Translations under genes and position numbers: made by a program
From: Roseateles sp. SL47
Lineage (GTDB): Bacteria > Pseudomonadota > Gammaproteobacteria > Burkholderiales > Burkholderiaceae_C
Assembly: GCF_026625885.1 (NCBI RefSeq)
Contig: NZ_CP113068.1
Location: 682,001-746,000 of the forward strand
Direction: 5' to 3'
DNA length: 64,000 nucleotides
The notes under the pieces: generated by a model
Database searches by the model: none
What the model saw: only the letters and a program-made list of their open reading frames with translations
What the model was told of the DNA's origin: nothing
Part shown: piece after piece, positions 40,302 to 64,000 of the stretch
Numbering within the stretch: position 1 is the first letter of the stretch
Layout: each line of letters begins with the position of its first letter

Positions 40302-41057
40302 ATGGGCGGGCGCTTGCGGGTCCTGTTGGTGGAGGATGACCCCTCGCTCCAGCGTTTTGTGGCCATGGCCCTGGAAGACGAAGACGTTCGGCTGCAGGGC
40401 TGCACTTCGGTGGATGAAGCGCTGCTTTCGCTGGCGACGCAGGCGTTTGATCTGGTGATCTCCGACCTGATGCTGCCCGGGCGGCATGGCAATGAACTGC
40501 TGGCGACGCTGAGTGAGCGCCCGGAACTTCGCGGGCAGGCGATGCTGGCTGTGTTCAGCGCGGGGTTGAATGGGCAGGTGAGGCAGCAACTGGAAGGTTT
40601 GGGCGTGAGCCGCTTTCTGGTGAAGCCCTGCTCCTTGGCAGATCTGCGGGCCTGTGTGCAGGATGCGCGGACGCTGAGGGATACCGCCAGCCCGGTGGCA
40701 CCGGCAGAGGACAGCGCACGCGCGACCGCGTCGGTGCATCAAACGGCCGTGGAAGAATTCTTTGGCGGCAATGCCGGGCTTTATCAGGCATTTTTGGCGC
40801 GGTGCCGCGCGCAGTTCCCGCAGGACATTGCGCGAGGGCGTGACGCCGCGCGATTGGGCCAGCATCAACCCCTGAGGCATCTGGCGCACAGCCTGAAGAG
40901 CGTGCTGCAGACGCTGGGGTATCCGGATGCGGCAGCGCTGGCGCGGGAATTGGAAGACTTGGCGCAGCAGGCTGGGGAACGGCAGGATGTGGACAGCACA
41001 GCCGCCATTCAGGACCGGTGGCTTCGGCTGGAGGCGGAGTTGAGTCGGTTGATTTAA
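40302..41057 (+). CDS. Receiver-Hpt phosphotransfer protein
   Basis: A 251-residue protein with an N-terminal receiver (LLVEDDPSLQRF, phospho-Asp in DLVISDLMLPGRHG, Lys in RFLVKPCS) and a C-terminal histidine phosphotransfer domain, whose active His is in HLAHSLKSVLQTLGY. A REC-Hpt protein would relay phosphate between the divergent kinase and the HTH-REC regulator encoded immediately upstream. The two genes are separated by only 2 bases, so they are co-transcribed. Confidence 0.9.
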   Translation: MGGRLRVLLVEDDPSLQRFVAMALEDEDVRLQGCTSVDEALLSLATQAFDLVISDLMLPGRHGNELLATLSERPELRGQAMLAVFSAGLNGQVRQQLEGLGVSRFLVKPCSLADLRACVQDARTLRDTASPVAPAEDSARATASVHQTAVEEFFGGNAGLYQAFLARCRAQFPQDIARGRDAARLGQHQPLRHLAHSLKSVLQTLGYPDAAALARELEDLAQQAGERQDVDSTAAIQDRWLRLEAELSRLI

Positions 41058-42088: not shown

Positions 42089-42353
42089 GTCCCACACATC
42101 TGGGAGCAACTCTCAGAGCCACACTGGACGAGAGCTGGAGCTGATGCTGGCAGGGGCAAGGCCCCTTGCCGCGTTTTGTGCTGAGGCAGACTCGTTGCCC
42201 TGGAAAGAACGAATTCCTGAGGAGGCATTCGCGGCGTACGTCGCGGCAGCTTCGGATGAACGACCGAGTCCAGTCAACAAGGGCACGGCCGGTATGCGGG
42301 GCTGTAATGCAGATATCGAATGCGCTAACCGCCCTGTTCGAACAGCTTGGTAG
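42072..42353 (+). pseudogene. Truncated hypothetical gene (N-terminal fragment)
   Basis: A 93-codon frame whose first ~60 residues read as a genuine protein start (MVLGIRSHTSGSNSQSHTGRE..., LMLAGARPLAAFCAEADSLPWKERIPEEAFAAYVA), after which the sequence becomes unlike protein (SDERPSPVNKGTAG...) and stops. I have an unsure memory of a longer accessory-island family with this beginning (ELMLAGxKPLAxF ... IPEEEFAPYV), so I treat this as a 3'-truncated copy. No continuation is found downstream in other frames. Confidence 0.45.
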
Positions 42354-42657
42354 CCTGCAAAGACGGCAATCGCACGACCAACGGCGGACGCAGGGTTTTG
42401 CGGGGTGGCAAGAGGCCAGAAAGCAATGGCAGCATACGACCTACCAGGGACCAATACGGCCACCAAAGCGACATGAAACAGAGTCCAGAAACGACCTGGA
42501 AATAATGCCGTACAAATATAAAGACGAACCGCCAAAAAGCGGGGGCTGCACAAGCACTTGAAGGTCTACCGCCCTGCGATGTGAGGGAGACAGCTCCGAT
42601 GTTATGCGGCAGCTTCTGTCGCCCTTTGACACGTTGAGCGGTCAGAGGAAAAGTCAA
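42354..42657. other. Gene-free stretch in accessory island
   Basis: No supported gene in about 300 bases. A GTTATGC string at 42601-42607 looks like an integron core site, but I find no matching left arm nearby, so it may be the decayed end of an attC. Confidence 0.35.
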
Positions 42658-42945
42658 ATGGAATCGAGCGACCGCGATTTGAAGAAGAACTGGAAGTTGC
42701 AGCAGCGCCAACTTGCGCGCGCGGCTTTTCCCGTTGCCGATCAACTCCTCGAATCACTATTTGACTCCGTCGAATCAAATGTGGATGTCCACGGCTGCGA
42801 TCACTCGCTGCGCTTCACGACGCAATGGATCAGTGAGCATGAGCAGCCCGAGCAACCAATTCTTGAGTGGCTCGCGGCCCATGGCGGTCATTGCGATTGC
42901 GAGGTGGTCACCAATGCTGCTGATCACTGGGAGCAGAACTGCTAA
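42658..42945 (+). CDS. DUF2695 family protein
   Basis: A 95-residue soluble protein matching DUF2695: CDHSLRFTTQWISEHEQPEQPILEWLAAHGGHCDCEVVTNA. The CDH and CDCEV motifs are typical and could bind a metal. I use the ATG at 42658, preceded by AGAGGAAA; an upstream ATG at 42604 overlaps a GTTATGC string. Function is unknown; the family is frequent in small accessory genes and integron cassettes. Confidence 0.8.
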   Translation: MESSDRDLKKNWKLQQRQLARAAFPVADQLLESLFDSVESNVDVHGCDHSLRFTTQWISEHEQPEQPILEWLAAHGGHCDCEVVTNAADHWEQNC

Positions 42946-43024
42946 TGGAAACTGCCGCCCACCATTTCATTGATCGGACCTGCGCCAGCAACGCTGGCTG
43001 GTTCGCTGAATGCACCCGTTAGGC
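42940..43024 (+). repeat. Possible degenerate attC site
   Basis: The stop of the DUF2695 gene lies in TGCTAAT (a weak left core). An internal hairpin GCCAGC-AAC-GCTGGC follows near the middle, and the right end reads TTCGCTGAATGCACCCGTTAGGC, closing with a good GTTRRRY core at 43018-43024. Arm complementarity is weak, so this may be a decayed site. Confidence 0.4.
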
Positions 43025-43030
43025 ATCACA

Positions 43031-43483
43031 GTGAAGCGCATCCTTGCAGCCTTTCTAGCCACCCTGGCTTGGAACTTGGCAAGCGCTGCTGAGACGCGGC
43101 CAACCGGCGCCAATTGCGACCTCGCGCAGCCACCCGCAGAGTCTGGGGAGGAAGGCGGGCACGGCTTTGTCCTTCTCGTCTTTCCGCGAACCGGCGACAT
43201 CGGCCCCAAGTACTCCGGTTGTCAGACGGTGTTTGTTACCGGTCGGAGCCAGGGCACCCGCTTCGCTTGGGTCGTGGAAGTGTCTCGCGGTGAGCCGATC
43301 CGCTTGTGGTCTGCCAGTAGCGAAATGCAAGCGGTTCTTCAATGCCGATACATGAATCGCCAACTTCAGCGGGGAAGTCCAGACGTCTGCCCGCCCGTGG
43401 AATCGCTACTGATGCCCACCCAGCCTGCCGGGTGCTTGACCGGAAAGTCTGCGGGTGCGAAATGCGACTACGACGTGGAGTGA
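43031..43483 (+). CDS. Secreted hypothetical protein
   Basis: A 150-residue protein with a signal peptide (KRILAAFLATLAWNLASAAE) and a mature domain containing five or six cysteines (ANCDLAQP, SGCQTVF, LQCRYM, VCPPVE, GCLTGK, KCDYD), suggesting disulfides in the periplasm. I place the start at a GTG just after a GTTAGGC core; an in-frame ATG at 43010 is an alternative that would lie inside the putative attC. No family recognised. Confidence 0.6.
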   Translation: MKRILAAFLATLAWNLASAAETRPTGANCDLAQPPAESGEEGGHGFVLLVFPRTGDIGPKYSGCQTVFVTGRSQGTRFAWVVEVSRGEPIRLWSASSEMQAVLQCRYMNRQLQRGSPDVCPPVESLLMPTQPAGCLTGKSAGAKCDYDVE

Positions 43484-55176: not shown

Positions 55177-55476
55177 ACATGGTCGATGCACTGCCGACCT
55201 TGCTGAAAACGCGGGAGTGCCGGGATCAAGGCACTCTTGCGTATTGCGTCGATCGGCTCCGTGCTGCTTCGGTTCGATGAGCGTCTGCTCGCGACGAAGT
55301 CGGGGGCAGTACCGGGTCACCTGCGACATTGGGAGGCTGCATCGTGGTCGCGCCACCGAATGTCTCTTCATGGCCGACGGCCGCCGCTCCGGGTTGGAAG
55401 CTCGACCGTCTGCACCCGCTGCAAAGCGGCCCTCCATGGCGGGTGGCCGCTTCAGGCTGGAAGCGGGCAACGCGAA
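55177..55476. other. Gene-free stretch with inverted repeat
   Basis: No supported gene. Near 55427-55453 a perfect 7-base inverted repeat AGCGGCC/GGCCGCT flanks 13 bases and is followed by CTTCAGGCTG (55450-55459), a string repeated at three other boundaries in this cassette region. It may be a decayed attC, but no core GTTRRRY closes it. Confidence 0.35.
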
Positions 55477-55893: not shown

Positions 55894-56065
55894 ACGTGCA
55901 ATCCGCGCAGACCATCGATTGAGTTCGCCGGTAGCCTACCCGAAATCCCTCGCCCACATCCTTCCGATAGTCGCCGACAGCGAGCATTGTGAGCACTGTG
56001 CCGATTGCCGCCTACGCTGCCTTGCTGACGCACAGATTCCGCAGCTTCAGGCTGAGAGCGGTCGC

Positions 56066-57149
56066 TCACCAACGACTGCTTTGCGGCTCCTCAGCTCCAG
56101 GCAGCGAGTCCAGGGGGCTGCGCACGGACTGCCGCCCATCCATGAGCACATGGGTGTAGATCATGCTCGTCGCCACATCGGCGTGCCCGAGCAACTCCTG
56201 CACGGTGCGGGTGTCGCAACCCGCCTGAAGCAGATGGGTCGCAAAACAGTGCCGCAGCGTGTGAGGCGTGGCGGGCTTGTCGATGCCTGCGGCCTGAACC
56301 GCGCGCTTAAACGCCCGCTGAAAGGTCTCGTCGTCGAGATGGTGCCGGCGAACGACGCCGCTGCGGGGATCGGCGGAATGATGGTCTTGAGGGAAGACCC
56401 AGAACCATCCCCAGCTGGCACCGGCCTGCGGGTATTTACGCTCAAGAGCATGCGGCAACTCCACCCCCGCATGCCCTGACTCCACATCGGCCGCCCAAAC
56501 CTGGCGAACCCGGCCCAATTGCTCTCGCAACGGCAATACCAAGGATTGGGGCAGCATCACCACCCGATCCTTGCCGCCCTTGCCCTGACGCACGCAGATC
56601 GCGCGTTGCGCGAAGTCGATGTCCTTGACCCACAGGCACAAGGCCTCGGCGACGCGCAACCCCGTGCCGTACAGCAGTCGCGCCAGCAATTGATGCTCGC
56701 CCCGCAGGCTGGCAAGCACCGCCAACATCTCTTCGACGCTGAGCTTCGACGCTGAGCACCACCGGCAGGCGCCGCTTGGGCACCGGGCGGCCGATCTCCT
56801 GCATCCAGGGCAACTGCAGCCCCAGCACCTTGCCGTAAAGGAACAGGAGTGCAGACAAGGCTCGGCGATGGCTAGACGGAGACAGCCCTCGGTCGGATGC
56901 CAGATAGGTCAGGAAGGCCTCGACCTCGGAGCCTCCCATCTGCGCCGGATGGCGCAGGCCGTGGAACCGGTTGAAGCCTCGAAACCAGTACAAGTACGCC
57001 TGCTCGGTCCGTCGGCTGTAGTGCAACATCCGAACGCGCTCATGCAACTGGTCGAGCAGCCTAACGGCACGCAACGGCGGTAAATTGACAGGGGTGGTCG
57101 GGCGCAAAGCCGCGCGAGGGATGGCTGGGCGTACGACGGCAGGCAGCAT
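56066..57149 (-). pseudogene. intI: Integron integrase, frameshifted (copy A)
   Basis: A tyrosine recombinase of the integron type. The N-terminal part ([29 protein letters not shown]) starts at the ATG at 57149, with GGAGG six bases upstream. The C-terminal part carries catalytic [22 protein letters not shown] and [13 protein letters not shown], plus the IntI-specific insert [20 protein letters not shown] that other tyrosine recombinases lack. The two halves are in different frames (57149-56757 and about 56728-56066) because CTTCGACGCTGAG occurs twice in tandem at 56731-56756; copy B has it once and reads through there. The enzyme is therefore probably inactive unless the frame is corrected. 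The gene diverges from attI and the cassettes, as in functional integrons. Confidence 0.93.
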
Positions 57150-57218
57150 GGCAGCCTCCACTTGGCGGTGCCGCGAACCGGCCAAGCAAGTTTGTAACGG
57201 ATGCGGCTTGTGGTCTGA

Positions 57219-57247
57219 AATTCAGTGCTGTATGAATGAACAGTCAA
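57219..57247 (-). promoter_or_regulatory. Integrase promoter PintI (copy A)
   Basis: On the minus strand, TTGACT (57247-57242) and TGAATT (57224-57219) are exactly 17 bases apart, placed about 70 bases before the integrase ATG. A LexA-type box sits between and over these elements. Copy B keeps only the -35. Confidence 0.6.
57228..57243. promoter_or_regulatory. LexA (SOS) operator CTGT-N8-ACAG
   Basis: The string CTGTATGAATGAACAG is a perfect match to the LexA box CTGT-N8-ACAG known in beta/gamma-proteobacteria. It overlaps the integrase promoter, as established for SOS-controlled integron integrases. In copy B the left half is deleted. Confidence 0.8.
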
Positions 57248-57359
57248 ATGGGATGAAAGTCCAGTCTCGACAAGCACTTGGATCGCGAGCGGGGCGACCC
57301 GTTACTGCGTGGCCTGCCGTGATAGGCCGCGCCGCCCGGCGGTCTACAACACGTTGAGC
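57241..57359 (+). other. attI recombination site region (copy A)
   Basis: About 113 bases conserved between the two copies run from the integrase promoter to ACAACAC-GTTGAGC. The terminal GTTGAGC (57353-57359) fits the GTTRRRY core, and the two copies diverge after GTT, marking the insertion point of the first cassette. Confidence 0.8.
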
Positions 57360-57371
57360 AGAAGGAATGGC

Positions 57372-57773
57372 ATGAGCTGCGATCACTCCGTCTGGTTTCC
57401 CCACAAGCGCCTGTCGAATGCTGAGGCAGGAGCGCTTCATTTGGCACTCTGCGAAGGTGATACCTCTGGAGTCCGTGATCACCCTGCCGTCGACGCGTTC
57501 TATGTGGAGCTTGTCGCCAAGCATCCGGAAATCGACGACATCGCCGACGATCAAGTGGATGACCAAGACCTTTGCCCATGGAGCATCGCCTTTGATCGCT
57601 CGGGCGGCCACATCATCATGTGCTGCGTTTGGTCGAAGGCGGACTACGTCAGCGCGTTGCTCAGGTCGTTAGCGGCGAAGCACCGTCTGGCGCTATATGA
57701 CCCCCAGTCCGAGCGAGTTCAGTACCCAGGCGATGGGATGACCGAATCTGAGCCATGGTGGAAGCTGTGGTGA
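57372..57773 (+). CDS. Integron cassette hypothetical protein
   Basis: First cassette after attI of copy A. The 133-residue soluble protein reads MSCDHSVWFPHKRLSNAEAG, then ALCEGDTSGVRDHPAVDAFYVELVAKHPEIDDI, DLCPWSIAFDRSGGHIIMCC and ends DGMTESEPWWKLW. I believe close relatives occur in other gammaproteobacterial and betaproteobacterial cassette arrays, but no function is known to me. The ATG follows AGAAGGAA, only 13 bases after the attI core, and the stop lies 7 bases before a clear attC, which is the standard cassette layout. Confidence 0.82.
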   Translation: MSCDHSVWFPHKRLSNAEAGALHLALCEGDTSGVRDHPAVDAFYVELVAKHPEIDDIADDQVDDQDLCPWSIAFDRSGGHIIMCCVWSKADYVSALLRSLAAKHRLALYDPQSERVQYPGDGMTESEPWWKLW

Positions 57774-57780
57774 CGCCTCT

Positions 57781-57838
57781 GCCCAACCTGTCGCTACAGC
57801 GGACGGCTTCGCCCCCCGCTGAGCTTTCACGTTATGCC
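57781..57838 (+). repeat. attC site (59-base element)
   Basis: Starts with GCCCAAC (a perfect RYYYAAC core), then AGCGGACGGCTTCGCCCC-CCGCT as the inner hairpin arms, and ends with GTTATGCC as the right core. Overall size is 58 bases. It shares AGCGGACGGCT.CGCC..CCGCTGAGC with the attC at 63618, so both belong to one attC family. Confidence 0.88.
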
Positions 57839-58235
57839 TCTTAGTACTGTCGCCATTGCACCCGCGCTGGTTGTCCCAAGTGAATCGGACATCGCTACCT
57901 TGCGGTTCGACGGCTAGAGCCTCTCCATAGTGGTTGCTCGCGAACAACTTTCGGGTGATCGGTTTCGGGGCCTTCGGATAGCGTTCCAAGCAGTCCAGGG
58001 CTTCCGCCTTCTCGATGAAGTGGACCTTGCACAATACTGGGCAGCCCCTGGTTTTGTGCGAGGTCATCATGTGCTGCTCGTTAAATCGGGGGGGTGGAGT
58101 GCCGAGGAGAATCTGAGGCAGGGCCACGAAGTTCGGCGTCGCGAATGGCTCGTGGTGACCGGAAACCACTGCCTGAGCGTCTTCGCAAGCGAAGACGCTC
58201 AAATTGACGAGGGCGCCTACGATGCCGAGGCATAA
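57834..58235 (+). pseudogene. Cassette gene interrupted by an in-frame TAG
   Basis: The frame opens at an ATG inside the attC right core (GTTATGCC) and reads MPLSTVAIAPALVVPSESDI..., reaches a TAG at 57915-57917, and continues in the same frame as SLSIVVAREQLSGDRFRGLRIAF to the stop at 58233. The continuous protein-like character on both sides (133 codons total) indicates a single point mutation rather than two genes. A GTG at 57930 could restart a 101-residue protein. I recognise no family. Confidence 0.7.
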
Positions 58236-58272
58236 CCATTCATTGCAGTGGACGCATTCGGCGCCCGCTGAA
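58229..58272 (+). repeat. Partial attC (left part)
   Basis: GGCATAACC (left core, overlapping the stop of the interrupted cassette gene) is followed by TGCAGTGGACGCATTCGGCGCCCGCTGA, matching the inner arms of the intact attC sites. The right core GTTRRRY is missing: the sequence goes on as AAAAAGTGGCCCC. The site appears truncated. Confidence 0.65.
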
Positions 58273-58400
58273 AAAGTGGCCCCGGCATTGCCGAGGCCTC
58301 AACATCTCATCGCGGTTTGACGTGCTGCATGCTCAGGGAGGGAAGAGCATGGAGCGTAAAGGCTCGGGTCGGATTCAAGACCGACGCTACCGAGCCGAAG

Positions 58401-58634
58401 TCAGAGAGGAGTTCGGTCGAAGACGAGGATCTGCTCGCCGAACTCGGCGACTGACTTCTCTTTAATCGAGTCCATCGCCATGCCGAGCTCAACGAGATCG
58501 TTCCCATAGTCGGCCTGGATGTCTTCGTCGGTGGTCGTGTTGCAGATGGTCCGCCACTTCTCTTTCAGCTCGGCCATCGCCAGTGGCACCAGCCTAGCCT
58601 CCCACTCCAGCAGCTCAACGGTTACCTTGCTCAT
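58401..58634 (-). CDS. Small hypothetical protein, reverse-oriented in cassette region
   Basis: A 77-residue acidic helical protein (MSKVTVELLEWEARLVPLAM, DEDIQADYGNDLVELGMAMDSIKEKSVAEFGEQ). The ATG at 58634 has GGTCGCAGGT upstream; an alternative start at 58748 would add a hydrophobic stretch. It lies against the direction of the other cassettes. No family recognised. Confidence 0.55.
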   Translation of the reverse strand: MSKVTVELLEWEARLVPLAMAELKEKWRTICNTTTDEDIQADYGNDLVELGMAMDSIKEKSVAEFGEQILVFDRTPL

Positions 58635-58774
58635 ACCTGCGACCCTTGCTTGTAAAACACTCTGGTGAGCGTATCCCACGAGGATGGCGCCACCGACCAA
58701 GTTGAGCTTCAGCAGTGCTCGGATCAGCTCACGCATGACGCGTCCCAATGGCGATGCTTATCTCTGTAGGTCGA

Positions 58775-58828
58775 GGCTTAATCTGTACAGGAAGCTGGCG
58801 CCGCAGGACCGCTTCAGGCTGTTAGCTG
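58775..58828 (+). repeat. Candidate attC site
   Basis: GGCTTAAT (left core with one mismatch), an arm ending in GAAGC, then GCTTCAGGCTGTTAGC as the right arm. The two arms can pair around GAAGC/GCTTC. The right core GTTAGCT deviates by one base from GTTRRRY. It contains the stop codon of the reverse-oriented gene at 58822. Confidence 0.5.
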
Positions 58829-59112
58829 ACGTTGACGCAACGCGTCGTGCGCCAAATGGCTTCGAACAGCCCGGCGGAGATGGCGCTCACAGTGCCGAAT
58901 TCCACCTGCGACGCCTCCAACTCATCCCACTGTCCTTCAGGTAACACACCAAATGTGTCTGCGGCATGCTCACGGTCGTATCGCAATGCAGTTCCGTCTG
59001 CCCGGACCTCGACATAGCGGAGCCAATGACCGTCAGCCTCAATCTCCGAATAACAGAGGAACTCATCGATTCCCACGGTGTTTCCGCTGGAGCAGTAGAG
59101 GCGATAGAGCAT
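58822..59112 (-). CDS. Hypothetical protein, reverse-oriented in cassette region
   Basis: A 96-residue soluble protein: MLYRLYCSSGNTVGIDEFLCYSEI, then HWLRYVEVRADGTALRYDREHAADTFGVLPEGQWDELEASQ. The sequence is well-formed and looks conserved, though I can name no function. Its TAA stop is part of the putative attC right core, so if it is a cassette gene it is inserted backwards and should carry its own promoter. Confidence 0.65.
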   Translation of the reverse strand: MLYRLYCSSGNTVGIDEFLCYSEIEADGHWLRYVEVRADGTALRYDREHAADTFGVLPEGQWDELEASQVEFGTVSAISAGLFEAIWRTTRCVNVS

Positions 59113-59341
59113 GTGTGTGATGGCAATGACCGTGCGAGTGCTGACTGCGGCCGTGGATATAGGCCCTGCCCATCATGGTACGTCCGCTTCCGCTGCAAGG
59201 CCGTCCTTGCGACTCCCATTCATCCGTCTCGGATGCATTCCACGCCGCTGCGCTGCGGCTTCGTCTCCTGGCGCTGGAGGGGCTGGTCGTCGATGACGAA
59301 ACTACATCCATCGACGCGACCAACCCCATGAGGAGATCGAC

Positions 59342-59590
59342 ATGACCCACCGCTTCCACCTCGAATCCGCCACGAGCCGCACCATCAAGGCGGTTGCTTT
59401 CGGCGCAGTCACCGCGGTGGTGATGGGGCTGGGTATCGCGCAAGTTGAAGGCCAACGCGAAGCACGCGCTCAGATCGTGACGCTGGACCCGGTGGTGATC
59501 ACCGTGAAGCGCCAGCAACTGCCGACCGTCTACATCACCGGTAAGCGCGACACGTCGGCCGACGGCGTCCAAGTCGCCTCGGCGCTGTGA
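59342..59590 (+). CDS. Small single-pass membrane protein
   Basis: An 82-residue protein with one hydrophobic helix (residues about 17-34, AVAFGAVTAVVMGLGIAQV) and a polar tail containing the near-repeat VVITVKRQQLPTVYITGKRD. A strong GAGGAG site lies 7 bases before the ATG, and a hairpin terminator follows about 70 bases after the stop. It is not flanked by attC sites, so it is probably resident or otherwise acquired DNA rather than a cassette. Function unknown. Confidence 0.68.
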   Translation: MTHRFHLESATSRTIKAVAFGAVTAVVMGLGIAQVEGQREARAQIVTLDPVVITVKRQQLPTVYITGKRDTSADGVQVASAL

Positions 59591-59660
59591 TCCCCGACGG
59601 TTGCGCTGCATCGATGGGGATGTCCATCGGCTGATGCCAAAGGATCCATGCCCCAACAAG

Positions 59661-59682
59661 ACGCCTGGCTCACGCCGGGCGT
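59661..59682. terminator. Hairpin terminator between convergent genes
   Basis: ACGCCTGGC and GCCGGGCGT form a 9-base stem with one G-U pair around TCAC, followed by TGCTTTC. It lies between the small membrane protein gene and the convergent DUF4124 gene. Confidence 0.55.
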
Positions 59683-59717
59683 TGCTTTCAAGGGCAGCCT
59701 CAGCCGCCCGCTCTTGA

Positions 59718-61217
59718 TCAAGCTTCCGTGGCCTTATAAGTCAGCCGCGCCTTGCGGGTGCTCAGGTCGTACGTCCAGATGTGGGTGACCGTGTTGTCGC
59801 GGATGTTGATGATGCTGACGATCGTTCCCTGAATGGCCACGGAGAGGCTGTCCAACCGCTCGTTTCCGCGGTCATAGACGCTGCCGAGGTCTGTGAGCTG
59901 ATCGCGCAGCGCAAGCACCTCGTCCACCTCCCCTCGCTCATTGAAGACGAGCAGTTCCGCCGCGTTCGAAATGCCGACGTAACGGCCCGTACGCGAATCG
60001 TGGGCGAGCCCCGTCAAGTCCCGATTTCTCAGGGAGGTGGCCCCCAGCCATTCGCGGCGGCGCGTGTCGTAGCGATAGAAATAGCCTTCGCCGCCGAATG
60101 ACACCAGGCTCAGCACCCCCTTTGTCTGATCCCAGGCCATTGCGGAGCCCCAGGACAGCGGCGGCAGCGACTTGGGGACCTCCACCTTCTGCTTCGGCCC
60201 GGAGAAACCCTTGGGGAGCCACACCAGATCGCCTCCGTTGCCGTCCAGCTCGTACGCCTCGGCGCCATCGTCGCGCACAGCTGCCGGTGCGCCCTTGCTC
60301 CGCGCCCAGACGCCGCCGCCACGCACGATGCCCGTGAATCGCTTGCCCTCACCTGGGCCAGTGTTGGTCCAGGGCAGCCGACGCCCGTCCACGCTCAGGA
60401 GCGCGAAGTTCATCTTCAGCGTGGTCGGCTGAGGCTTGGTGCCGACCAGGGTCAGCGAAGGATCAAGCACGAACGGTCCGCGCAGCGTGATCGTTCCCGG
60501 CATGCGATAGCTACCTCTCAAAGCCGTCACCTGCGTCACCCCATAGCGGACGTTCAGCCGGCGCATCAAGCTCCGGAACTTGATGTTGTCGGCTTCATAG
60601 GCATAGGGCACCTGATCCGTGACCACAGGCACCTGCGGCGGCCCGCTCACGACACTTTGATCTTCATACGAGCCCACGACGATCCCCAGCAGTCGGGTCC
60701 CCGGCTGAACCTGCACCTGCCAATGGGTCCCGTTGTAGCTGCTAAGGACCAACAGCACGGGACGTGCCGGATGGTCGACAACCACCTGCGTGGCTCTGGC
60801 GGTGAACTCGTAGGCCGAGACGACCAGTGTGTCCGCTTGAGCGCCCCATTGCGACATGTCGGTCGGCCCGCTGGCGGAAGCCGCCGATTGCGACGATCCC
60901 TGCGGTTTGAGCGCAGGCGCTGACATCACCGGCTTCGAATCGATCGTCCTGTTGTCGGACGGCGCGCTTCGTGTCTTCAAGCCGGAGGGCGCCGGCGCGC
61001 TTCCCAGCTCCGGCGAGATCAGACGAGGCGCCGCAGGCGAAGCTGCGGATCCATGGTGCGAATCAATCTCCAGCTTGCGGCTCGCATCCGTGTCGGCGCA
61101 AGGTTGCGACTGGTAGGCCACCGCGCCCTGGGCATTGGCGCATCGGTAGACGTTGGCGGATGCCAAGACGGGCAGACTCAGCCAAAGGCCGGCCACGAAG
61201 GCAGTGGTCGTTTTCAA
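59718..61217 (-). CDS. Exported DUF4124 domain protein
   Basis: A 499-residue periplasmic protein if translation begins at the TTG at 61217, which has GGGAGGG eight bases upstream and gives a clean signal peptide (KTTTAFVAGLWLSLPVLASA). DUF4124 follows (VYRCANAQGAVAYQSQPCADTD, a two-cysteine domain), then a Ser/Pro/Ala-rich linker (about 50-130) and a large beta-rich region with repeated SWGSAMAWDQTKG, LVSFGGEGYFYRYD and GLAHDSRTGRYVGIS elements suggestive of a propeller. ATG alternatives at 61262 and 61274 would add about 15-20 residues before the signal peptide. Function unknown; it sits between the two integron copies. Confidence 0.72.
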   Translation of the reverse strand: MKTTTAFVAGLWLSLPVLASANVYRCANAQGAVAYQSQPCADTDASRKLEIDSHHGSAASPAAPRLISPELGSAPAPSGLKTRSAPSDNRTIDSKPVMSAPALKPQGSSQSAASASGPTDMSQWGAQADTLVVSAYEFTARATQVVVDHPARPVLLVLSSYNGTHWQVQVQPGTRLLGIVVGSYEDQSVVSGPPQVPVVTDQVPYAYEADNIKFRSLMRRLNVRYGVTQVTALRGSYRMPGTITLRGPFVLDPSLTLVGTKPQPTTLKMNFALLSVDGRRLPWTNTGPGEGKRFTGIVRGGGVWARSKGAPAAVRDDGAEAYELDGNGGDLVWLPKGFSGPKQKVEVPKSLPPLSWGSAMAWDQTKGVLSLVSFGGEGYFYRYDTRRREWLGATSLRNRDLTGLAHDSRTGRYVGISNAAELLVFNERGEVDEVLALRDQLTDLGSVYDRGNERLDSLSVAIQGTIVSIINIRDNTVTHIWTYDLSTRKARLTYKATEA

Positions 61218-61429
61218 TGGAATGCCCTCCCTGGGCGAATCGGTTCTCGGAGGCGGAGCCATCTTTGCCCGCATTTTGCCCGCTGTCTCATGACTTCTTC
61301 GCAACGCGTTTGGGCGCCGGACTGCCGCGCAGACCCTTGGGACGAGGTAGCGCTTCACAGCACTGGGACGCTGTGCCACACGCTGGTATTCAAGCGACTT
61401 GGCTGAACAGGGCAAGTCTGTCTTGCGAG

Positions 61430-62633
61430 GTCCGCTTCAGGCTGATTGCTGTCGCTCACCAACGACTGCTTTGCGGCTCCTCAGCTCCAGGGAGCGAGTC
61501 CAGGGGGCTGCGCACGGCACTGCTGCCCATCCTGAGCACATGGGTGTAGATCATGCTCGTCGCCACATCGGCGTGCCCGAGCAACTCCTGCACGGTGCGG
61601 GTGTCGCAACCCGCCTGAAGCAGATGGGTCGCAAAACAGTGCCGCAGCGTGTGAGGCGTGGCGGGCTTGTCGATGCCTGCGGCCTGAACCGCGCGCTTAA
61701 ACGCCCGCTAAAAGGTCTCGTCGTCGAGATGGTGCCGGCGAACGACGCCGCTGCGGGGATCGGCGGAATGATGGTCTTGAGGGAAGACCCAGAACCATCC
61801 CAGCTGGCACCGGCCTGCGGGTATTTGCGCTCAAGAGCATGCGGCAACTCCACCCCCGCATGCCCTGACTCCACATCGGCCGCCCAAACCTGGCGAACCC
61901 GGCCCAATTGCTCTCGCAACGGCAATACCAAGGATTGGGGCAGCATCACACCACCCGATCCTTGCCTCCCTTGCCCTGACGCACGTAGATCGCGCGTCGC
62001 GCGAAGTCGATGTCCTTGACCCGCAGGCACAAGGCCTCGGTGATGCGCAACCCCGTGCCGTACAGCAGTCGCGCCAGCAATTGATGCTCGCCCTGCAGTC
62101 TGGCAAGCACCGCCAACACCTCTTCGACGCTGAGCACGACCGGGAAGCGCCGCTTGGGCCCCGGGCAGCCGATCTCCTGCATCCAGGGCAACTGCAGCCC
62201 CAGCACCTTGCCGTAAAGGAACAGGAGTGCAGACAAGGCTCGGCGATGGCTAGACGGAGACAGCCCTCGGTCGGATGCCAGATAGGTCAGGAAGGCCTCG
62301 ACCTCGGAGCCTCCCATCTGCGCCGGATGGCGCAGGCCGTGGAACCGGATGAAGGCTCGAAATCAGTACAAGTACGCCTGCTCGGTCCGCCGGCTGTAGT
62401 GCAACATCCGAACGGGTTCATGCAACTGGTCGAGCAGCCTAACGGCACGCAACGGCGGTAAATTGACAGGGGTGGTCGGGCGCAAAGCCGCACGAGGGAT
62501 GGCTGGACGCACGACGGACAGTCAAATGGGATGAAAGTCCAGTCTCGACAAGCACTTGGATCGCGAGCGGGGCGACCCGTTACTGCGTGGCCTGCCGTGA
62601 TAGGCCGCACCGCCCGGCGGTCTACAACACGTT
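61430..62633. repeat. Integron platform repeat, copy B
   Basis: Second direct copy of the integrase-attI block (see 56030-57355). Relative to copy A it lacks 100 bases at 62518/62519, lacks the extra 13-base unit, has an extra CA near 61948 and one C fewer near 61800, and carries scattered substitutions. The similarity starts around CTTCAGGCTG (61435) and ends at the attI core. Confidence 0.9.
61456..62518 (-). pseudogene. intI: Integron integrase, multiply disrupted (copy B)
   Basis: Same gene as copy A and still recognisable by [18 protein letters not shown]-type and [16 protein letters not shown] segments, now in three frames. Lesions seen by comparison with copy A: loss of the block holding the start codon and ribosome site; a TGA at 62365-62363 replacing the Trp codon of YWFRGF; a 2-base insertion in CATCACACCACCC near 61948; and a 1-base deletion near 61800. 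It lacks copy A's 13-base duplication, so the region around 62130 reads through ([20 protein letters not shown]). The protein cannot be made. Confidence 0.93.
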
Positions 62634-62637
62634 AGCC
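62519..62637 (+). other. attI recombination site region (copy B)
   Basis: Matches copy A base for base except one substitution, from CAGTCAAATGGG to ACAACACGTT, then GTTAGCC (62631-62637), a perfect GTTRRRY core that begins the first cassette of this array. Confidence 0.8.
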
Positions 62638-62665
62638 ACTTATCACACACAAGGGAGTCACTGCG

Positions 62666-63163
62666 ATGGGAATGGTTGGTTGTTTCGCCGCCGTAAGTCC
62701 AGAAAGTTTGGGCGAGCTCAAAGACAACCCGGATGAAATCGAGAGCTATATCTACCCGAACGATGGCGAAGACGAACCGCCGAACTACCTCGACGTCGAC
62801 AAAGCGTGGCACGGCATTCATTTCATGTTGACTGGTTCCGCCGACGGCGGAGAAGAGCCGCTTTCGTGGGCGGTTCTTGGCGGAGAGGAGGTCGGAGAGG
62901 ATATGGGTTATGGTCCTGTCCGCCTTCTCACGCCTCAGCAAGTAAAAGCAGTTGCGGCTGCGTTAGCCGCTCTAAGCGAGGACGGTTTTCGAAGCAGGTT
63001 CGCGCCCCAGGAAATGGAAGCAGCCGGAATTTACCCCGATGTAATCTGGGTTCGCGACGGCCAAGAGGCACTTGATTACGTTCTAGAAAATTATCGACAA
63101 CTGGTCGTGTTCTACTCGGAAGCGGCAGCGCGCGGCGACGGAGCGATTCTTTGGCTTTCCTGA
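62666..63163 (+). CDS. DUF1877 (YfbM-like) protein in integron cassette
   Basis: A 165-residue soluble protein of the DUF1877 family: MGMVGCFAAVSPESLGELKDNP, YLDVDKAWHGIHFMLTGSADGGEEPLSWAVLGGEEVGEDMGYGPVRLLTPQQVKAVAAAL and VLENYRQLVVFYSEAAARGDGAILWLS. It is full length. AAGGGAG precedes the ATG, 29 bases after the attI core. The family is widespread, of unknown function, and common in cassette arrays and toxin-immunity islands. Confidence 0.92.
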   Translation: MGMVGCFAAVSPESLGELKDNPDEIESYIYPNDGEDEPPNYLDVDKAWHGIHFMLTGSADGGEEPLSWAVLGGEEVGEDMGYGPVRLLTPQQVKAVAAALAALSEDGFRSRFAPQEMEAAGIYPDVIWVRDGQEALDYVLENYRQLVVFYSEAAARGDGAILWLS

Positions 63164-63170
63164 AGCCAGC

Positions 63171-63254
63171 GGCTAACCCTACGGTCAACACGGACCGCCC
63201 AACAACTGCGCTGTTGGGTTCCCTACGCGCTGCGCGCTTCGGCGGCCGGTTACC
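63171..63254 (+). repeat. attC site (degenerate, 84 bases)
   Basis: GGCTAACC at the left and GGTTACC at the right pair imperfectly; the centre forms CCCAACA-ACTGCGC-TGTTGGG. It starts 8 bases after the DUF1877 stop and ends before the next cassette gene, so position supports the call. Confidence 0.6.
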
Positions 63255-63290
63255 TTCACGTTTTTCCGCTTGGAGGAAGGTTGCGCCGCC

Positions 63291-63593
63291 ATGAACGTCT
63301 GCCCGAACTGCCACGCATCTCACGGCATTTCCGAGCTTCTGGTCCTGCTTTCTGGGTCGCTCTGGCCAGCAAGGTGCCGCATTTGCCGAACAAGCTTCTG
63401 TCCGGCGCCAGTACGGGGCGCTCTGTTCGCCGAGATTGCATTCTTTCCGTTCGGCTTGATGGCCTCCGCCGCTTCGTCAAGCGCGTGGGTCGTAGCGCTA
63501 TTCGCCCTGGGGTTTTTTGTCGCTTGCATCGCGGTGCGTGCTTGGGCGCCATTGGTGGTCTTGCCACAACGGCGCGAGGGGCGAGTTCAGTGA
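63291..63593 (+). CDS. Zinc-ribbon membrane protein in integron cassette
   Basis: A 100-residue protein with an N-terminal zinc-ribbon-like motif (MNVCPNCHASH, then ARCRICRTSFC; CxxC ... CxxC) and two adjacent hydrophobic helices (about residues 48-90). GGAGGAAGG lies 10 bases before the ATG. An attC follows 25 bases after the stop. I recognise the layout but no specific family. Confidence 0.75.
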   Translation: MNVCPNCHASHGISELLVLLSGSLWPARCRICRTSFCPAPVRGALFAEIAFFPFGLMASAASSSAWVVALFALGFFVACIAVRAWAPLVVLPQRREGRVQ

Positions 63594-63617
63594 GTCGGTC
63601 CGCTCAATGCGCGAATC

Positions 63618-63675
63618 GGCATAACCTTTCGCTTCAGCGGACGGCTCCGCCGCCCGCTGAGCGCGAATGTTAGCC
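63618..63675 (+). repeat. attC site (59-base element)
   Basis: Left core GCATAAC, inner arms AGCGGACGGCTCCGCCGCCCGCT, right core GTTAGCC (63669-63675). Size and internal sequence match the attC at 57781-57838, linking the two arrays to one cassette pool. Confidence 0.88.
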
Positions 63676-63685
63676 TTCGAAGATT

Positions 63686-64000
63686 ATGTCGCGCTTTATC
63701 GCCCCTGTGCTCGCATTACTCATTTCTGCACTTTGCTTCTCCGGAAGCGCAGGAGCAGAAGAACAGGAGTTGCCGCCTGAGAAGTGGCCGTTGACCGTGT
63801 CCGCGACTGTGAAAGACCTCTTAACTCGAATGTCGGCTGAATCCAAGGCTACGGTTAAGGACACGAAGAAGGAGGATTTGATCCTGTTCCATCATGGCTG
63901 GGGTACGGGCATTCGAAATTACTACGGCCTTTGGCGCGGCAATCAGAAACTCATCCAATCTGCCTGCGGGAAGCCGTGTCATCCGGATGATGCGTCAATG
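63686..64000 (+). CDS. DUF6794-like secreted protein in integron cassette (partial, runs off the window)
   Basis: The frame is open from the ATG at 63686 to the window end, 105 codons. A signal peptide (MSRFIAPVLALLISALCFSGSAGA) is followed by ELPPEKWPLTVSATVKDLL, KKEDLILFHHGWGTGIRNYY and SACGKPCHPDDASM, the pattern of DUF6794 proteins, in which the HHGWGxGIRNxYGLW motif is strongly conserved. Function is unknown. It begins 10 bases after the attC core, so it is the third cassette of array B. Confidence 0.85.
   Translation, partial: MSRFIAPVLALLISALCFSGSAGAEEQELPPEKWPLTVSATVKDLLTRMSAESKATVKDTKKEDLILFHHGWGTGIRNYYGLWRGNQKLIQSACGKPCHPDDASM

Follow-up and report, generated by a model that had tools for sequence, protein, structure and literature searches.

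Integrons located on chromosomes are generally regarded as sedentary. According to Nemergut et al. 2008 (PMC2426708), about one in five integron-bearing bacteria has more than one integrase gene (intI), about one intI in three is a pseudogene, and many of these pseudogenes apparently arose by duplication within the genome. Inactivation of the integrase has been linked to loss of LexA control (PMC3108266), and the mechanism of insertion or deletion of Shewanella integrons was called unknown by the authors who described them (PMC9229058). Here, we describe a 64,000-nucleotide stretch of Roseateles sp. SL47 (bases 682001–746000 of a one-contig genome of 6,388,479 bp with 100% estimated completeness; hereafter, the window), which carries two nearly identical platforms, each composed of an intI pseudogene and an attI site, and the relic of a third. 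An earlier note on this DNA stated that integrons normally have one integrase and regarded paired decaying copies as a rare record; the rarity of a second intI is overstated there in view of the frequencies given in PMC2426708.

As one cassette was apparently duplicated along with the platform, the locus suggests an order of events, i.e., duplication, capture of cassettes at both attI sites, and independent death. We consider it probable that a duplicated platform captured cassettes at both attI sites before its integrases died independently, beside an older relic. Positions are window coordinates, which are continued beyond 64000 where features lie to the right of the window (Table 1). Compared loci and genomes are designated by L and G numbers, respectively, G000 being Roseateles sp. 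SL47. The names priA, hemE, glmS, dusC, lipA, malonate decarboxylase and IS21 are those which we presume from the appearance of the open reading frames (ORFs).

Table 1. Features of the integron region of Roseateles sp. SL47
Feature	Position	Strand	Remarks
Stretch from response-regulator gene to priA	41058–64000 inside window		~27 kb in full; holds all three platforms
Third platform relic	42234–42638	-	intI 5' end, intergenic part and attI, core GTTGAGC
Cassette after third attI	42636–43024	+	ORF ending at 42945; attC 42957–43024
Next gene of third array	43010–43483	+	65.6% DNA identity over 418 bp to first cassette after attI in same-genus genome G001
Platform copy 1	56044–57355	-	intI pseudogene (coding relic ~56066–57149) and attI; blastn, TIGR02249
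13-bp tandem duplication in intI of copy 1	56731–56757	-	shifts the frame
LexA-box-like CTGT-N8-ACAG	57228–57243		in the intI–attI interval of copy 1; consensus follows PMC3108266
attI 1	57240–57359	+	core GTTGAGC at 57353–57359
Cassette A	57356–57837	+	ORF 57372–57773, no Pfam match; attC 57781–57837
Cassette X	57838–58272	+	in both arrays; ends inside truncated attC 58230–58282
anti-hemB-like small RNA	58270–58353	-	RF02837, 33.8 bits, E 6e-5, below gathering score 49.5
Spacer	58273–61433		small ORFs, one DUF6881-like (below cut-off); DUF4124 protein gene
DUF4124 protein gene	59718–61415	-	in spacer
Platform copy 2	61434–62633	-	intI pseudogene (61456–62516) and attI; blastn, TIGR02249
attI 2	62518–62637	+	core GTTAGCC at 62631–62637
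Cassette B	62634–63260	+	DUF1877 protein 62666–63163 (167.8 bits); attC-like stretch 63171–63258 by eye
Cassette C	63261–63675	+	ORF 63291–63593; attC 63619–63675
Cassette D	63676–64000, continuing past window	+	attC 64041–64109
Cassette X'	64110–64520	+	after D, just outside window; attC 64478–64534
IS21-like element	64900–67430 (L011:900–3430)		inside array 2

Two dead platforms in direct repeat

The earlier note had described two near-identical blocks of the same orientation, 5.4 kb apart, whose similarity ends at the attI core with a different cassette behind each, and the alignment bears this out. By blastn, 56044–57139 and 61434–62517 match in direct orientation with 95.6% identity over 1099 columns, gaps included, and the adjoining attI repeat is identical at 115 of 116 positions (57240–57355 and 62518–62633). 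Over the whole ~1.3-kb unit, 1166 of 1197 ungapped positions are equal (97.4%), and the offset between the copies shifts from 5391 to 5278. Similarity stops at the GTT of the core (57353–57355 and 62631–62633). The attI stretch ends in ACAACACGTT in both copies and in the compared loci L050, L051 and L052, and in ACAACAAGTT in L083, and there, too, similarity stops. Inverted repeats of at least 25 bp were not found at 50–64 kb. Misassembly classically arises at near-identical repeats; however, the copies differ by 31 substitutions and 6 gaps and have different flanks, and the genome forms one contig of 100% estimated completeness, so that a single platform assembled twice is extremely improbable.

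The two genes are integron integrases rather than XerC/XerD-type recombinases, as the earlier note had proposed. The TIGR02249 profile matched the C-terminal frame of copy 1 with 316.6 bits (cut-off, 265) and its N-terminal frame with 109.9 bits; two pieces of copy 2 scored 149.3 and 44.2 bits, both below the cut-off, as expected for broken genes. On that C-terminal frame, XerC and XerD models reached about 120 bits; they scored lower than TIGR02249 wherever they matched at all, and were the best match for neither copy. Elsewhere in the SL47 genome, TIGR02249 scores did not exceed 83.8 bits. The locus thus comprises an intI family gene, attI with a core, and cassettes with attC sites oriented away from intI, as in a chromosomal integron. 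A functional integrase is lacking, copy 1 being frameshifted, copy 2 carrying five lesions and the third copy being nearly gone, and the three platforms are filed as dead integrons.

Death of both integrases, likewise claimed before, was confirmed, with different lesions in each copy. Apart from the 13-bp tandem duplication, intI of copy 1 shows a 1-bp deletion and a 1-bp insertion near its 3' end (56127–56143), ~15 bp apart, which cancel each other and alter a few codons. Copy 2 is characterized by a 100-bp deletion over the first codons, a 2-bp insertion, a 1-bp deletion and two nonsense codons; the 100-bp deletion also removes the left half of its LexA-box-like motif. No lesion is common to the two copies, and intI is open in the relatives L050, L051 and L052.

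The platforms nearest to the SL47 copies were found in Pelomonas and Roseateles. In a tree of nine platforms, copies 1 and 2 group together (support 100/99), followed by L050 (100/99). Changes polarised at sites where L051 equals L052 comprise 16 shared by the two copies, 13 private to copy 1, 14 private to copy 2 (one of them just past the core), 12 in L050, and one shared by copy 2 and L050. The copies are sisters, and the duplication therefore happened within the SL47 lineage, in line with the platform duplication considered in the earlier note. Separate horizontal acquisition of both platforms from related donors, at the same hotspot, would agree with the third relic, which is of another lineage and indicates that separate arrivals do occur here, and with the unrelated left flanks of copy 1, copy 2, L050, L051 and L052. 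The copies are, however, closest to each other among the compared platforms, share the 16 polarised changes, and are followed by arrays which have cassette X in common (see below), so that we deem separate acquisition distinctly improbable.

The nonsynonymous to synonymous coding changes amount to 11:9 on the branch shared by the copies, 8:5 in copy 1 alone and 7:4 plus two stops in copy 2 alone, as compared to 5:7 in L050 alone and 8:24 in L051 alone; changes private to L052 are excluded from these counts. Since the pooled copy branches differ from L050 and L051 (26:18 vs 13:31, p 0.010), constraint on the intI copies looks relaxed, as judged from coding changes. The shared branch alone does not differ clearly from these relatives (11:9 vs 13:31, p 0.09).

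Cassette arrays and the probable order of events

For detection of attC sites in the window and 40 kb rightward, three covariance models were used, built from 20 sites (R1; 3 from SL47), 9 sites (R2; 1 from SL47) and 6 sites (R3; none from SL47). Sites used in building a model match that model by construction, which is avoided with R3. In the R1 alignment, 90.3% of the cells of the drawn structure are paired, vs 26.5–42.6% when it is slid, and six pairs are changed on both sides. A home-made attC finder gave 33 candidates on one strand of an 80-kb region and 22 on the other, but overlooked visible sites because it demanded near-perfect core pairing; the covariance models were used instead.

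R1 matched the plus strand at 57781–57837 (70.6 bits), 63619–63675 (73.0 bits) and 64478–64534 (65.0 bits), and a truncated site which has lost its right core at 58230–58282 (36.3 bits), while R2 matched at 64041–64109 (94.7 bits). All strong matches are on the plus strand, the same sites reversed scoring at most 22.8 bits. R3 recovered the sites at 63619 (39.0 bits), 57781 (35.5 bits), 64478 (34.8 bits) and 64042 (23.7 bits). Single-strand folds were better than those of shuffled sequences for two of six stretches, 57781 (z -3.7) and 63619 (z -4.9). attC sites were thus found after both platforms, and after the third relic as well.

Array 1 has the order attI-A-X, with X being cut, and array 2 the order attI-B-C-D-X', followed by a further cassette, coding for a DUF2199 protein, with the IS21-like element, and reaching priA. 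The element, which we take to be IS21-like from its ORF features, is located inside array 2 and does not enclose a platform. X and X' are equal at 403 of 411 ungapped positions (98.1%) and differ by eight substitutions, one 23-bp gap and one 1-bp gap. The divergence of X (8/411) and that of the platform (31/1197) give no sign of differing ages (Fisher p 0.58). A figure of 91.8%, by which X had appeared more diverged than the platform, counts the 23-bp gap and was rejected. As X has diverged no differently from the platform, it was most likely already in place behind attI at the time of copying.

Between attI and X, the two arrays have different contents, delimited by core sites. Since integrons take up new cassettes at attI, the plain reading is separate capture after copying, with A entering at copy 1, and B, C and D entering at copy 2, possibly accompanied by losses. 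Integrase activity after the duplication would hence be needed, from either copy. The claim that each platform had its own cassettes holds for those directly behind each attI and fails for X, which both arrays possess. The earlier note's other proposal, a recombination that split one array in two, finds no support in arrays which each have their own integrase and attI and a single cassette in common.

We infer the order of events, the role of IntI as the maker of the array differences, and the inclusion of X in the duplicated segment from this comparison. The core of a sedentary chromosomal integron, with at least intI, attI and cassette X, would have been duplicated in a lineage of the Roseateles/Pelomonas group, resulting in two platforms of the same orientation 5.4 kb apart. 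Integrase would then have acted at both attI sites, placing A into copy 1 and B, C and D into copy 2, each between attI and the old X. Subsequently, both integrase genes would have broken independently, freezing the arrays, next to a third, presumably older platform of another intI lineage which had already decayed.

Several points weigh against this history. The copies do not differ evenly along the gene: one region of 431 bp has 2 differences, another of 557 bp has 23 (p 1e-4; regions picked after looking). Conversion between genes or recombination with a further copy is the probable cause, and the sister signal may be partly due to it. The ratio on the shared branch is a hint that the enzyme might have begun to fail by the time of duplication, which would weaken the case for later capture. 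The spacer and the left flanks of copies 1 and 2 are unrelated, so that the locus does not show the pattern of a simple tandem duplication. Cassette X of array 1 breaks off within its own attC, and the array differences may include losses. Moreover, four of the six stretches tested fold no better than shuffled sequences, among them the attC-like stretch of cassette B (z -0.5), which was placed by eye and was missed by the covariance models.

The second platform might also have been stacked onto the first by the integrase, if a circle with the core had integrated at a resident attI or attC to give a downstream platform of the same orientation. All three platforms share one orientation, array 1 ends inside an attC, and the array differences start at core sites, which speaks for such stacking. 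The left ends of the copies, ~20 bp past the intI stop, in contrast, contain neither an attC recognized by R1 or R3 nor a GTT core common to all. We therefore regard stacking as unlikely, and duplication followed by capture at both attI sites as the probable course.

A third platform, other relics and neighbouring DNA

The earlier note was right about the two platforms, but its count was incomplete, as the window contains three. A DNA profile of eight platforms detected the third relic with 96.9 bits (E 1.8e-29; model positions 896–1301), in the orientation of copies 1 and 2, and it is followed by an attC of its own, matched by R3 with 50.1 bits (E 7e-13), whose fold is no better than those of shuffles. 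The relic is closer to L042 (226/402) than to copy 1 (203/402) and is therefore not a third copy of the same duplication; it is of another intI lineage and presumably older.

All three platforms are located between a response-regulator gene (40302–41057) and priA, whose 3' end is at 68475. This gap measures about 0.1–0.9 kb in four of the five same-genus genomes examined (G001, G009, G012 and G015), vs ~27 kb in SL47. In the fifth, G003 (L106, G003:C3), ~9 kb of other genes separate the response-regulator gene from priA, and the gap therefore looks like an insertion hotspot. No platform relics were detected in the corresponding stretches of the five genomes, with nothing below E 0.28. Genes which we presume to code for malonate decarboxylase (48.2–54.3 kb) are now situated between the third array and copy 1; they are found elsewhere in G003 and G009, at 87 and 91% identity.

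Further remnants are scattered over the genome and its relatives. In SL47, an intI 3' end (122 bits) is located beside the presumed dusC gene at 2,996,884–2,997,138, and a 51-bp intI tail (24.4 bits) next to glmS at 474.8 kb; R. asaccharophilus (L053) carries an open intI at this place. G003 harbors an attI relic (44 bits) ~3 kb from dusC, and G001 an open intI adjoining lipA as well as two intI 3' fragments within its array. Directly behind the dusC relic of SL47 (G000:C1:2992001–3002000; L104:3508–4840), a DarT-like gene (46.6 bits) and a gene for a DarT1-associated NADAR antitoxin (299.5 bits, Pfam) were identified; this toxin-antitoxin pair may have arrived as integron cassettes. A 56-bp stretch beside copy 1 (55402–55457) resembles G000:C1:2995339–2995394 beside the dusC relic (89%), these being the only two strong copies in the genome, and a stretch overlapping this repeat adjoins the attI relic of G003. 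Roseateles cellulosilyticus P8 (L054, L067) and Inhella proteolytica (L065, L066) have two IntI loci each, on different contigs, and both contigs of I. proteolytica end near the platform. Three near-identical attC sites of R. cellulosilyticus, spaced 313 bp apart (L067:8353–9035), probably represent a tandemly repeated cassette.

The DNA between the copies had been described as non-cassette DNA, and indeed the covariance models found no attC in the spacer, the best R3 score being 8.5 bits (E 4.2). The DUF4124 gene was not found in any of the 15 other same-genus genomes (E ≤1e-20). A search for the DUF4124 protein yielded 41 proteins, including its own, among 7995 candidates scored, one of them in Roseateles sp. 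BYS87W (63%). The stretch 59213–59693, with an 82-aa ORF (59342–59590), has relatives in many same-genus genomes, often several in each (66–88% DNA identity), and thus appears to be a small repeated family. In the anti-hemB-like small RNA candidate, a terminator is fused to the cut attC of X; at gathering scores, Rfam gave no match in the whole window.

A common left end, and comparison with known integrons

Copy 1, copy 2, L050, L051 and L052 are 92–97% identical inside, and their left flanks lack mutual similarity (E ≤1e-6; 3 to 10 kb compared). In these loci, which represent four species, the resemblance gives out, to within a few bases, at a single point ~20 bp beyond the intI stop. The hexamer CAGCCT occupies +12 to +17 past the stop and lies within the imperfect palindrome GCnnnAGGCTGnnnGC on the other strand. 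It was observed at +12 in seven of 51 intI ends (both copies, L050, L052, L053, L063 and L079), L051 having a variant; one end too short, and matches with <45% identity, above E 1e-10 or falling short of the C-terminus, had been left out. Of the 51 ends, which are not independent of each other, 14 have CAGCCT at most 150 bp from the stop, vs 5.6% of random stretches, and as a tail motif it is not general to intI. The sequence GCTTCAGGCTG, a possible dispersed repeat, has 11 exact copies in 1.29 Mb of integron-rich DNA, four of them at or near the platforms of the window, three within 120 bp of intI ends of other genomes, and four at other places; as controls, six altered 11-mers gave 0 to 9 copies.

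A common left end in unrelated flanks means that the core may move as a unit. The ~1.3-kb core of intI and attI would then be a discrete unit, fixed at its left terminus and open on the right, which would relocate and duplicate in this group and leave behind platforms in stacks as well as small relics, in SL47 at three chromosomal sites. We put this forward tentatively, as a doubtful possibility. Neither an enzyme, nor a target duplication, nor an empty site was found, and the 3' end of a functional intI would be conserved too. A search for an empty site, in which the flank of L050 was matched in none of 16 same-genus genomes, carries no weight either way. The match of the L051 flank to G003 was rejected as a shared site, because the matching gene, as read from its ORFs, is presumably a transposase gene. 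A likeness of the left end to the ends of local IS21 elements was dropped (9.1 bits, E 1.3). If true, a moving core would answer how platforms regarded as sedentary change place, and the common left end in several species provides a concrete border for such a unit.

In a survey of 399 genomes of the family, 214 had IntI (E ≤1e-26), and among the best ~150 matches listed, no pair on the same contig was closer than ~90 kb; since the IntI scores of SL47 itself lie below these matches, the rarity of tandem platforms is not established. Among the titles and abstract openings listed, in several cases the best 10–20 of many, none described tandem same-strand chromosomal platforms, and no paper was found on integrons in Roseateles. 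Second and dead intI genes, of which SL47 represents a variant, are well documented. Not seen among the papers listed is a same-strand platform pair in which a common cassette puts duplication, capture and death in sequence, next to a third relic.

SL47 resembles the multiple-intI genomes of PMC2426708 in within-genome duplication and decay of intI. However, that report, in the portion available, describes intI genes, a functional one beside a pseudogene, whereas the SL47 unit also takes in attI and probably a cassette; here, neither copy is alive, and the arrays, unlike those cases, would record activity after the duplication. Xanthomonas chromosomal integrons, as portrayed in excerpts of PMC12444791 and PMC3108266, likewise show intI pseudogene, attI and array, with repeated independent inactivation; their intI, where kept, is found beside ilvD, whereas SL47 has three platforms in one stretch and relics elsewhere. 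Related platforms in varied contexts connect the SL47 group with the Shewanella integrons of one intI group, which occur in many genetic surroundings (PMC9229058), and from which, as far as the available part of that account describes them, it differs in that the left end of its unit can be placed within a few bases in several species.

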